Shown one piece after another: positions 28,998-32,698 of a stretch of 64,000 bases of DNA. Every line of letters begins with the position of its first letter. The first letter of the stretch is position 1. The notes beneath the pieces were generated by a model. That model saw only the letters and a program-made list of their open reading frames with translations, was not told where the DNA came from and did no database searches. Made by a program: the position numbers and the translations under genes. The stretch spans positions 1 through 64,000 of the forward strand of contig WYAX01000010.1 in the NCBI GenBank assembly GCA_011525625.1. Reading direction: 5' to 3'. Source of the DNA: Nitrospira defluvii. GTDB taxonomy: Bacteria; Nitrospirota; Nitrospiria; Nitrospirales; Nitrospiraceae.

Positions 28998-30704
28998 TCA
29001 GCGACGGGCTCGACGTGCTGAGGGAGTCGGTCTGGTTGTCGCAGGCTTCTTCCGACCGGCGCGCGCGGAGGGGGTAAGCAGTGCAACGAGCCGGCGTATG
29101 GTACGAACAGGATCTGCGCCTAGGCTGATGCGAACGGCAGGACGTTGGTGGCTGTGCAGCGACTGGAGGTCGCCCAGCGCCTGGGCTTGCGCCAGCGTGC
29201 CGAATGTATACGACTGTTCTGGAATCGGCAGATCCGGCTTCATGGCATCGACCAGCTCCAGAAACAGCCCGCTGTTGGGGCCACCCTTGTGCAGTTGCCC
29301 TGTGGAGTGCAGATAGCGCGGGCCGTACCCGGCCGTGGTGGCTATGTGATGTCGGACCATGATGGCCTTGCGCAGGGCGCGCAGTGCGGCATCAATTTTA
29401 GGGCTTGGAGTCGTGTAGGCGAGAATCGCCACATATCGATGAGGCGCCGATTGCTCAAGCAGCTGCGCAAGGGCCTGCCGGGGGGGCGGCATCGGTAGTG
29501 CCGGAAGTCGTCCCTGACTGTCGACCTCCTTCAAGACGCGGGCAGTGTTGTCTTTGCTTTCCTGAACATTCGGTTGATCGAATGGATGAATCCCGAGGAT
29601 GTGGCCCGCGACCGCGGTGGCGAATTCCCAGCGGAAAAATTCTGCGCCCAGGTCATACAGATCGTTTAGGTTGAGTCGGAAGATCGGATGTCCCGCCTTG
29701 TGGAGGGCGGCGAGGCCCCGGTCTAACGACGCATTGCGGTCCCCCTTCAATCGAAGGCAGACGAAAAATCGATCGGTTCCATAGGCCGATGGTGCCGCGA
29801 GGGCCTCTCCTGCTATGGGGACGAGCCCTGTGCCTTCCTTGCCGGTACTTTCCGCCAGGAGTTGCTCTACCCAGAGGCCGAACGAATTCAGGGTCGGCGA
29901 GGTAAGCAGCGTAACTTTGTCGCGTCCGGCGCGGGCCAGGGCGGCCATCATCGCCCCCAGGACTGCGCCGGGATTGTCTTGCGGCGAAGATGAATGCCGA
30001 CACGCTTCGCGCATGGAGAGGGCTCGGGAGAGGAGCTTGTTCACATTGAGTCCCAGTAGGGCCGCGGGAACGAGGCCGAAGTAGGAGAGTACGGAATAGC
30101 GCCCGCCGATATCGGGTTGGTTGATGAATGTGCGCCAGAACCCGCGCTGACGCGCCAGTCGTTCGAGGCCTGTCCCGGGATCGGTGATGGCAACAAACTG
30201 GGCTCCACCCCGATGCCCTTTAGTTCGGTGTACGAGGTTCCAGAAGTGCGCGAAGAGCGACATGACTTCGATCGTTCCGCCGGACTTGCTGGCCACAAGG
30301 AAGAGGGTTCGGGCCGGCTGGATAGCGTTGGTAACCCGCCGGACCCAACCGGGCACTGTGGAGTCCAGCACCCAGAGCTGCGGGGCGCCTTTGGCGGGGC
30401 CGAATGTACAACGCAAGACTTCGGGGCCGAGACTGCTTCCGCCCATGCCGAGCAGGACCACGTCGGTGATGCGAGCTTCCCGCGCCGCTTGCGCGAAGGT
30501 TCGCAAATCGGACAGTCCATCTTGCATCTGATCAAGGACTGTCAGCCAACCGAGGCGGTTTTCGATTTCCGCCGGGGTCGGTTTCCATACGGTGTGGTCT
30601 CGAGTCCAGATCCGCTCGATGGTGTGGCTTCCGGCGAGGTCCTCGAGTGTTCGGGTGATGGCCTGGTCGGTCGGTCGTGACGATGGGTTGGGGCGGATCG
30701 GCAT
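28998..30704 (-). CDS. pgi: Glucose-6-phosphate isomerase
   Basis: 568 residues. Sugar-isomerase blocks: 'VVLLGMGGSSLGPEVL' (82-97), 'LFLVASKSGGTIEVMSLF', 'GGRYSVLSYFGLVPAALLG', 'IHPFDQPNVQESK' and 'RYLHSTGQLHKGGPNSGLFLEL'. This is the version of the enzyme that in other bacteria is fused behind a transaldolase; here it stands alone. It converts glucose-6-phosphate and fructose-6-phosphate. It opens the operon with pgl, glk, rpiA and pepN. The Arg-rich tail is not conserved. Confidence 0.92.
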   Translation of the reverse strand: MPIRPNPSSRPTDQAITRTLEDLAGSHTIERIWTRDHTVWKPTPAEIENRLGWLTVLDQMQDGLSDLRTFAQAAREARITDVVLLGMGGSSLGPEVLRCTFGPAKGAPQLWVLDSTVPGWVRRVTNAIQPARTLFLVASKSGGTIEVMSLFAHFWNLVHRTKGHRGGAQFVAITDPGTGLERLARQRGFWRTFINQPDIGGRYSVLSYFGLVPAALLGLNVNKLLSRALSMREACRHSSSPQDNPGAVLGAMMAALARAGRDKVTLLTSPTLNSFGLWVEQLLAESTGKEGTGLVPIAGEALAAPSAYGTDRFFVCLRLKGDRNASLDRGLAALHKAGHPIFRLNLNDLYDLGAEFFRWEFATAVAGHILGIHPFDQPNVQESKDNTARVLKEVDSQGRLPALPMPPPRQALAQLLEQSAPHRYVAILAYTTPSPKIDAALRALRKAIMVRHHIATTAGYGPRYLHSTGQLHKGGPNSGLFLELVDAMKPDLPIPEQSYTFGTLAQAQALGDLQSLHSHQRPAVRISLGADPVRTIRRLVALLTPSARAGRKKPATTRPTPSARRARR

Positions 30705-31040: not shown

Positions 31041-31469
31041 TCAGTGCCAACCCTTGAGTTCATAGCCGCTCTTTTTGAGGCAAGCGCCGAAATAAGCTGC
31101 GTAATCACTGTTTGGGTCTAGCGGCGACATTGCTCCCGCAACACCACCAACAAGTCCAAGAACGCTTCCTGCTATAAGGGCCGCTATGGCAGACATACCG
31201 CTCGTTATTCCTCCAACAGCTCCTATGACAGCACCGCCCAAGGCGTACAGGGCAGCCCCTTGAGCAATCTTCTGGCCGCGAGTTTCTCCAGGATCAATCT
31301 GTTCCTTCTCGGCCTTCTGAGTGCATTCTGAAATAGCTTCTTGTGCCAGCGGTTCTCCCGTGGTCATTAAATGAGCATTCGATTGCAATATTGGCTTAGG
31401 GCCCGCGCACGCGCTCAGACTGAGAGAAGCCGCCAGCAGCAGTGCTAGCGTTTGGTTCCGAAAGAGCAT
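31041..31469 (-). CDS. Glycine-zipper lipoprotein of unknown function
   Basis: 142 residues from the ATG at 31469; a longer start at 31541 would put 24 residues before the signal peptide. The signal ends in the lipobox 'LSLSAC' and the C-terminal half is a Gly/Ala-rich hairpin ('ALGGAVIGAVGGITSGMSAIAALIAG' type), as in glycine-zipper membrane proteins. Two further Cys are near 70 and 131. It follows the YkuD-fold gene on the same strand with 80 bp between them. Confidence 0.65.
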   Translation of the reverse strand: MLFRNQTLALLLAASLSLSACAGPKPILQSNAHLMTTGEPLAQEAISECTQKAEKEQIDPGETRGQKIAQGAALYALGGAVIGAVGGITSGMSAIAALIAGSVLGLVGGVAGAMSPLDPNSDYAAYFGACLKKSGYELKGWH

Positions 31470-31549
31470 CAATTGTCTGGCGTTCTCGGATGGTGGGATC
31501 TGTGGAATCGAAGCCCCGTTGGGAGGCAGCATGGTGGGCACAGTAAGTG

Positions 31550-32698
31550 CTAGGTTTCTTCTTCTTGATCGCCCAGGTCGGCCAGTACGAGTGAGATGGA
31601 GTTGTGTGATTCCAACGCACCAACGATGTTGACCGGCGTGCCCACGGCTACCTGATCGAACAGTACGGCAATCTGTGGATTGTCCAGCACGATGCTGCCG
31701 TATGGCTGATCTGTAATACCCTGGGCCATACCGTGAAGCTGAATGAGTCCAGGCATCTGCCGGTGCTTGGGGATCAGCCCCGCTTGTTGCGCGGCTTCAA
31801 ACCGGCGTCGGTCCTCCGCGTTAGGGTAGTCAAGAATTAAGGCGCGAAAGAAAGGCGTTTGTCCGGGCCCGCGTTTGCGCTGGATGCGATACTCGCCCTC
31901 TGGGGTCGCGCCATCTCCGTAGTGTTGTTTCGCACGGATACCTCTCGAACCTAGGCGGATCGGATAGGTCAGAATTTTCCGGCCGCTTTTATAGACTGTG
32001 AGGACGCGGTCGGCCTTACTGATCACAATGGCATGCGCGCGGTTTTTTCGGGACCAATCGATGGTGCGTTGTGCAGATTCCCGCCAGGCGGCAATCAGGT
32101 CGTCGTCGGCATACCGTCCCAATTCATTCGTGAGCAGGGCGGTTTGGGTCAGGAGGATTTTGCCTGCGCGTTCTGAGGTCTGATTCGCATACTCAAACTG
32201 TCCCTGGTCAAGATAATGGCGAGCTTGTTTCACGAGCAGTTCGGTTTCGAGTGGATGTTCGCCGAGGACCACGCGACTGTCGATGTCTCCCACGCGCGCG
32301 TTCAGGAGCCGCAGGCGTTGCTCAACTTTGGCCAGTTTGGCCTCCGCTGCGGTTCGTTGTGCGAGGATTTGGCTGTTGACCTCGGTTATGAGCTGGGTTC
32401 CTTCGGCCTGAAGCGCTTCCAACTCCGTTTCCAGCTCATTATCTTCCCAGGGCCAGCGAACGATATTCTCCTCCGATCGGACGCGGCTTCTGAGGGCCAT
32501 CCATTGGCGAGAGAACTTGGAATAGGCCTCGGGCGTGATTGTTGAGGCTCGCAAGGTGCCGAGGTCACGATCAATGCTTTCGATCGCTTCCACCAATTCT
32601 TCAGGCACGGTCTCGACGCACCCGCCCAGGCTCATCGAGAAGAGGCCGACGAGGACCATGCGTGAAACGGTGCGAAAGATGTTGCGCCTGTGATCCAT
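31550..32698 (-). CDS. YkuD-fold lipoprotein with catalytic Cys replaced by Ser
   Basis: 382 residues. The signal has lipobox 'MSLGGC' (Cys27). Residues 30-190 are mostly helical with coiled-coil stretches. The C-terminal 220-362 is an L,D-transpeptidase (YkuD) domain: 'AIVISKADRVLTVYKSGRKILTYPIRLG', 'GDGATPEGEYRI', 'IQLHGMAQGITDQPYGSIVLDN' and 'VAVGTPVNIVG'. In the active-site block His322 and Gly323 are kept, but the expected G-C-I-A-L reads G-S-I-V-L, so Ser335 (AGC, 31696-31694) stands where the catalytic Cys should be. The enzyme is therefore probably inactive as a transpeptidase, or uses Ser. It may be a peptidoglycan-binding or regulatory protein. Confidence 0.82.
   Translation of the reverse strand: MDHRRNIFRTVSRMVLVGLFSMSLGGCVETVPEELVEAIESIDRDLGTLRASTITPEAYSKFSRQWMALRSRVRSEENIVRWPWEDNELETELEALQAEGTQLITEVNSQILAQRTAAEAKLAKVEQRLRLLNARVGDIDSRVVLGEHPLETELLVKQARHYLDQGQFEYANQTSERAGKILLTQTALLTNELGRYADDDLIAAWRESAQRTIDWSRKNRAHAIVISKADRVLTVYKSGRKILTYPIRLGSRGIRAKQHYGDGATPEGEYRIQRKRGPGQTPFFRALILDYPNAEDRRRFEAAQQAGLIPKHRQMPGLIQLHGMAQGITDQPYGSIVLDNPQIAVLFDQVAVGTPVNIVGALESHNSISLVLADLGDQEEET

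Follow-up and report, generated by a model that had tools for sequence, protein, structure and literature searches.

In the available parts of the published reports, DpaA, the protein named for PDB entry 8IKR (PMC13400389), detaches Braun's lipoprotein from peptidoglycan (PMC8263019), and its Lys83 lines the mDAP pocket (PMC10653827). A pocket Lys is present, and the Arg of LD-transpeptidases absent, in both DpaA and the LD-carboxypeptidases, according to the accessible portions of two of these papers (PMC10653827; PMC8263019). The inactive YkuD-fold forms described in the literature text at hand are engineered; one of them, Acinetobacter baumannii LdtJ C390S, is catalytically dead and still restores growth and shape (PMC12548408). 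As far as the available text of the corresponding paper goes, beta-lactam turnover by the YafK-type Legionella protein Lpg1514 requires Ser132 and not Cys174 (PMC13400389). No report of a natural Ser variant, or of a lineage-wide natural loss of the YkuD nucleophile, was found in our literature search, which mostly covered sources other than subscription journals.

We analyzed a stretch of 64,000 nucleotides of Nitrospira defluvii, hereafter the window (assembly GCA_011525625.1, contig WYAX01000010.1, positions 1-64,000, forward strand), and focused on one of its genes, c3, the product of which an earlier note on this DNA had described as a lipoprotein with a YkuD fold (Table 1). Both parts of this description held: the lipobox reads LGGC, ending at Cys27, and the Pfam profile PF03734 matched the protein with 52.3 bits (cut-off 23.4), placing it within the YkuD domain family. 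In its own genome, c3 was the sole YkuD match at E≤0.001, and a VanW search of the same genome yielded no match. A 95% identical protein occurs in Nitrospira sp. CR1.2. The lipobox Cys is followed by Val or Ile and then Glu in all 29 copies from Nitrospira and the sister genus G042, so that the +2 residue is never Asp. Sorting of lipoproteins to the outer membrane by the +2 residue is a rule established for E. coli; by this rule, c3 is probably an outer-membrane lipoprotein.

An hhalign comparison found the N-terminal domain of c3 to be distantly similar to c6, a lipoprotein encoded beside c3 in relatives (see below), with a probability of 85% (E=6e-6, 11% identity), a similarity that the common helical make-up of the two may inflate; the helices of the domain were seen in a low-confidence predicted model. 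The AlphaFold predictions, based on 19 closely similar rows, reached a pLDDT of 51 for the full protein and 48 for the YkuD domain alone, and were too poor to be used as evidence. A Foldseek search with the predicted model returned no match at E≤0.001, and its best-probability rows were matches of 29-32 columns to Bacillus subtilis YkuD. Between c3 and the downstream isomerase-like gene, the window carries an ORF for a 166-aa glycine-zipper lipoprotein without a Pfam match (31041-31541, minus strand). In a translated search with the 142-aa form of this ORF, no searched locus other than that of the window gave a match.

Table 1. Features of the c3 locus, in window coordinates
Feature	Position	Strand	Basis
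c3, 382-aa YkuD lipoprotein with Ser replacing the nucleophile Cys	31550..32698	-	ORF translation, profile match
Signal peptide and lipobox LGGC27; +2 residue Val, not Asp	32618..32698	-	sequence
Helical N-terminal domain, residues 28-218	32045..32617	-	distant similarity to c6; low-confidence model
YkuD domain, residues 223-358	31625..32032	-	PF03734 profile match
Lys257, counterpart of DpaA Lys83 (mDAP pocket)	31928..31930	-	alignment to 8ikr
Active-site loop, residues 312-340	31679..31765	-	rewritten in Nitrospira and G042, then conserved
His322 of the active site, invariant	31733..31735	-	alignment
AGC codon for Ser335 (nucleophile site)	31694..31696	-	reverse complement of gct
Downstream conserved neighbor, presumably glucose-6-phosphate isomerase-like	28998..30704	-	locus comparison

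The earlier note had further proposed that the active-site block keeps His322, Gly323, Gly334 and the G-T-P-V tail, whereas the nucleophile position carries Ser335, encoded by AGC, a single base away from TGC. The codon indeed reads AGC, and H322, G323, G334 and G353-T354-P355-V356 were invariant across the 29 copies from Nitrospira and G042. The single-base distance was likewise borne out, with TGC or TGT in the Cys copies and AGC or AGT in the Ser copies. The active-site motif is PYGSIV in c3 and TLGCVM in the Cys-bearing relatives. The nucleophile Cys of the L,D-transpeptidase motif (S/T)HGC, which reads PYGS in c3, is replaced by Ser in 28 and by Gly in 1 of the 29 copies, and no second Cys after the lipobox Cys27 was found at their aligned positions. 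The usual His of SHGC and the usual Arg two residues past the Cys (GCIR) are missing from c3 as well, residue 337 being V, L or Q; the same residue is M or Q in the Cys-bearing relatives and A in family f3. Because both the His and the Arg had already gone in the Cys relatives, the loss of the Cys is the only change among these residues that is special to the lineage.

Two other residues are conserved almost without exception. Lys257 was kept in 29 of 29 Nitrospira and G042 copies, in 120 of 122 rows with Cys (the other 2 are gaps) and in 12 of 12 f3 rows, and Thr281 was present in 166 of 172 rows, with gaps in the remaining 6. The latter residue is a candidate for a Cys-independent activity of the kind that depends on Ser132 in Lpg1514, a precedent as far as described in the available part of that report (PMC13400389): Thr281 lies 24 residues past Lys257 and Ser132 lies 22 residues past Lys110, a likeness in spacing only. 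However, Thr281 is equally invariant in the Cys enzymes and need not, therefore, signify new chemistry; we consider such an activity improbable.

The gene was found in 28 of the 29 genomes of the genus Nitrospira, the exception being G010, an assembly of 1030 contigs. Residue 335 was Ser in 27 of these 28 copies and Gly in G025, the protein of which is 94% identical to that of the window, and G042 also carries Ser at this position. Thus, with 27 of 28 Nitrospira copies and G042 in agreement and both AGC and AGT codons in use, Ser335 is not a slip of one genome, and the alignment of close homologues that the earlier note had called for shows it to be nearly fixed. In the broader family, c3 was matched in 158 of 175 genomes, and reading all 158 yielded 160 rows, of which 122 have Cys, 29 Ser and 2 Gly; the other 7, unreadable at the nucleophile position (6 gapped rows and G170), were counted as neither Cys nor Ser. 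In family f3, Cys is present in each of the 12 rows, which come from 7 genomes. The prevalence of Cys in the family (122 of 160 rows) and in every f3 row indicates that Cys is the ancestral state. The copies with Ser or Gly comprise all 28 from Nitrospira and those from G042, G048 (Gly) and G228. The copy in G228 (L231), a genome of genus g10 with a decaying cluster, represents a separate Cys-to-Ser change (TLGS). Separately, f3 genomes such as G116, G121, G109, G119 and G143 (L098-L109) carry two Cys-bearing c3 paralogues each, spaced by about 9-17 kb in G116, G121 and G109.

The near-fixation of Ser in Nitrospira and its presence in G042, together with the invariant His322, would suit a working nucleophile in which His322 activates Ser335, making c3 a Ser-dependent amidase, carboxypeptidase or transpeptidase, and in the part of the Lpg1514 report available, the YafK fold does support Ser-dependent beta-lactam turnover (PMC13400389). 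Nevertheless, Gly335 of G025 sits among unchanged adjacent loop letters in a nearly identical protein, and G048 has Gly too. Furthermore, the engineered Cys-to-Ser form of LdtJ is inactive in the text available to us (PMC12548408), and Ser132 of Lpg1514, as described in the accessible portion of its report, occupies a different position in a protein that still has its Cys174. The Ser-dependent variant that the earlier note had offered as one option thus found no support, and we hold it to be unlikely.

We compared the loci of 18 Cys-bearing relatives and found c3 beside three further genes, c6, c9 and c10, near the isomerase-like gene. The c6 product is a helical lipoprotein of about 205 aa with only a sub-threshold Pfam match, to DUF4398. 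The c9 product, of about 212 aa, is a canonical L,D-transpeptidase with THGCIRL in 18 of 18 aligned sequences. The product of c10, aligned from 18 relatives where the gene lies beside c9, is secreted, is about 212 aa long and has no Pfam match; when compared by hhalign as a possible YkuD relative, it scored 0.2% with the c3 domain and 61.5% with the front part of c9, the latter across 38 columns. Examples of c10 are L128:4893-5546 and L129:1698-2456, and remnants only were seen in two c9-less g10 loci.

The Nitrospira loci are arranged differently. A search for c9 confined to this family matched 117 of its 175 genomes and none of the 29 from Nitrospira. At 27 of the 28 loci in Nitrospira, only 36-172 bases separate c3 from the start of the isomerase match, leaving no room for c9 or c10; in the window, the gap is 834 bases and holds the small lipoprotein ORF. 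No c10 was found at the Nitrospira loci, where alone it was sought. Similarly, no c6 was found at these loci: the c6 profile had no match at the 28 local loci, and a genome-wide search of Nitrospira, run without a positive control, was also empty. Among the other non-Cys genomes, G042 (Ser) and G048 (Gly) have kept c6, with neither c9 nor c10 present at the locus, and G228 shows just a c10 remnant between c3 and the isomerase gene.

We inspected c6 at 59 loci of c9-bearing genomes, one of them partial, and found a C-terminal Lys in 47 of the 58 full-length copies and none in the other 11. In c9-less genomes, c6 lacks the terminal Lys in G042 and G048, ends in Lys in G045 and is in pieces in G222. 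A strict rule of a C-terminal Lys for c6 therefore fails, given the 11 exceptions in c9-bearing genomes, and the Lys end also occurs without c9, in G045. In an ancestral attach/detach cluster, a lipoprotein ending in Lys would be expected next to an active L,D-transpeptidase; the Lys-ended majority of c6 copies and the canonical motif of c9 may reflect such a pairing.

A c3 tree, built by a quick method from 122 of 172 rows with residues 326-340 left out (fragmentary rows, from 10 genomes, and roughly two of every three genomes in G148-G214 were dropped), required 3 changes for Cys versus non-Cys and 4 for the presence of c9. The losses of Cys were placed at Nitrospira plus G042, at G048 and, inside g10, at G228, all three in c9-less lineages. 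Such branches make up 19% of the length of the family tree, so that three of three would be expected by chance with a probability of about 0.007, a crude estimate in which stems are counted whole, regardless of the order of events. Consistently, c3 has Cys in 115 of the 116 c9-bearing genomes with the gene. In the exception, G170 (80% complete), the c3 match ends at about residue 313-317, directly before c9, and the part that would carry the Cys is absent, reflecting either a deletion or an assembly fault. Conversely, six genomes kept Cys despite the absence of c9 (G045, G215, G221, G222, G230 and, at a contig edge, G165), so loss of c9 does not force the loss of Cys. A perfect correlation between c9 and Cys is ruled out by these six genomes and G170.

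Besides c3, 13 of the 28 gene-bearing Nitrospira genomes encode another YkuD protein of a different kind, and an SHGC motif was seen in all but one of these 13; in the other 15, including that of the window, c3 is the sole YkuD match. Because the motif is present in 12 of these 13 genomes, the nucleophile loss is not tied to a total absence of L,D-transpeptidases. Proteins of this second family, of about 290-340 aa, are scattered in Nitrospira and other genera (L113-L120, L275-L285, L301).

With c9 gone from Nitrospira and c6 and c10 absent from the locus, c3 could be a dying gene in which the Cys was lost among many neutral changes. The gene does break elsewhere: in c9-less g10, five genomes have fragments of c3 only, four of them with in-frame stops, which is real decay. 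However, none of the 28 Nitrospira matches contains an internal stop, and the selection estimates point the other way. Median dN/dS, taken over pairs with dS of 0.05-2 (272 of 378 pairs for the Nitrospira YkuD domain) and with dS often near saturation (median pS 0.66), was 0.040 for the YkuD domain and 0.064 for the N-terminal domain in Nitrospira; the corresponding values were 0.054 and 0.076 for 12 g10 copies with both Cys and c9, and 0.148 and 0.299 for four c9-less g10 copies. In the unsaturated pair of the window and L002, dN was 0.013 and dS 0.57. Ongoing decay is thus very unlikely. Instead, the Nitrospira alignments combine a lost catalytic residue with retained purifying selection, as would be expected of a maintained pseudoenzyme.

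The changes themselves are concentrated around the active site. Of the positions at least 95% conserved in the Cys copies, 8 of 15 within residues 312-340 are changed in Nitrospira and G042, compared with 5 of 78 outside that range (p=5.5e-5 by Fisher's test, for a range picked after the changes had been seen; in a sliding window, the densest 29-residue stretch is 309-337). In two control clades, 0 of 15 and 0 of 13 positions of the same loop are changed, on branches of about 0.12-0.15 as against 0.29 for the Nitrospira stem. The changes turn TLGCVM into PYGSIV and also affect positions 315, 316, 320 and 321. This concentration indicates an active-site loop that was first rewritten in this lineage and has largely been kept since.

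The parent activity is probably not that of a true L,D-transpeptidase. By single-sequence search, the best solved match of c3 was DpaA (8ikr, E=2e-5), and the best structure matches of the family profile were 7o21, 8ikr and Pgp2. The best NCBIfam match was also DpaA (NF040599), with 24 bits, far below the cut-off of 365; three Cys orthologues likewise had it as their best match, with 21.5-32.8 bits. In the alignment to 8ikr, c3 has the pocket Lys of DpaA, Lys257 corresponding to Lys83 with a numbering offset inferred from Cys143, and no Arg, whereas the counterpart of the catalytic Cys143 is Ser335 in c3 and Cys in its relatives. Since the family has neither the LD-transpeptidase Arg nor the SHGC His and its nearest relatives are DpaA and LD-carboxypeptidases, descent from an LD-transpeptidase is disfavored. 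Thus, of the pseudo-transpeptidase suggested in the earlier note, the pseudoenzyme probably stands, given an ancestral Cys, a near-fixed Ser, a single Gly and purifying selection, and the transpeptidase is probably misnamed.

Taken together, these observations are best explained, with a probability of about 0.55, if c3 is a lineage-fixed, maintained YkuD-fold pseudoenzyme that probably sits in the outer membrane as a lipoprotein and holds on to peptidoglycan non-covalently as a tether or sensor. The pseudoenzyme part is well supported by the comparisons above and is highly probable; peptidoglycan binding and a tether role are putative. Comparison with relatives shows that the ancestor was a Cys-bearing lipoprotein clustered with c6, c9 and the secreted c10. 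The Lys-ended c6 (47 of 58), the canonical c9 and the kinship with DpaA suggest, and do not prove, that these genes formed a set resembling the Braun's lipoprotein system, in which c9 would join c6 to peptidoglycan and the Cys protein, acting like DpaA, would release it. In Nitrospira, which shows no c9 in its genomes and no c6 or c10 at the locus, the nucleophile became Ser (Gly once), and the active-site loop, rather than decaying, was rewritten and thereafter kept under strong purifying selection. The mDAP pocket (Lys257, His322 and the oxyanion loop) may now bind stem peptides without cleaving them, with the helical domain spanning the periplasm and the YkuD pocket holding the mDAP stem peptides. 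Nitrospira has a wide periplasm; our search found no useful paper linking this to c3. More tentatively, and with odds well short of even, the tether-cutting enzyme may have become the tether itself, a pseudo-amidase, after the covalent system joining outer membrane and peptidoglycan was dismantled. Against the tether or sensor explanation we count the persistence of Ser in 27 of 28 copies and the SHGC-bearing YkuD protein found in 12 of the 28 Nitrospira genomes.

A maintained pseudoenzyme could also act on other proteins, scaffolding or activating a different wall enzyme, in which case binding to peptidoglycan would be beside the point. Dead wall hydrolases that act as activators are known, such as those of the EnvC type, and the helical N-terminal domain of c3 is itself conserved (dN/dS 0.064). 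Yet the invariant Lys257 of the mDAP pocket and His322 exceed what a pure scaffold would need, and we regard this role as a minority possibility, though not a negligible one.

YkuD-fold proteins are annotated as L,D-transpeptidases, a name that would be wrong for c3 across nearly the whole of a nitrite-oxidizing genus. The three nucleophile losses, all in lineages that also lack the partner enzyme, would provide a natural counterpart to LdtJ C390S and make it possible to ask what role a YkuD fold has when it is unable to catalyze. They also lead to the prediction of a system like that of Braun's lipoprotein in the Nitrospira family and of one lineage that lost it.

Compared with known systems, c3 is like E. 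coli DpaA (LdtF, YafK) in keeping the pocket Lys and in having neither the LD-transpeptidase Arg nor the SHGC His, and differs from it in lacking the nucleophile Cys and in having an additional helical N-terminal domain and a lipid anchor. The LD-carboxypeptidases Csd6 (4XZZ/4Y4V) and Pgp2 (6XJ6), matched by profile at E=4.8e-5 and 8.5e-6, respectively, share with c3 the pocket Lys and the absence of the Arg, and have the catalytic Cys that c3 lacks. The accessory domains of Csd6 and Pgp2 also differ from those of c3. The canonical L,D-transpeptidases (YkuD, LdtMt2 and c9) have PF03734 and the HG and GTPV blocks in common with c3, which is without their Cys, SHGC His and Arg. In Lpg1514, a YafK-like lipoprotein, the Cys is dispensable for the activity measured, as far as the available part of its report describes, yet Cys174 is kept and Ser132 lies at another position. 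Finally, LdtJ C390S carries the identical Cys-to-Ser change, but as a laboratory mutant, whereas the change in c3 is natural and lineage-wide.
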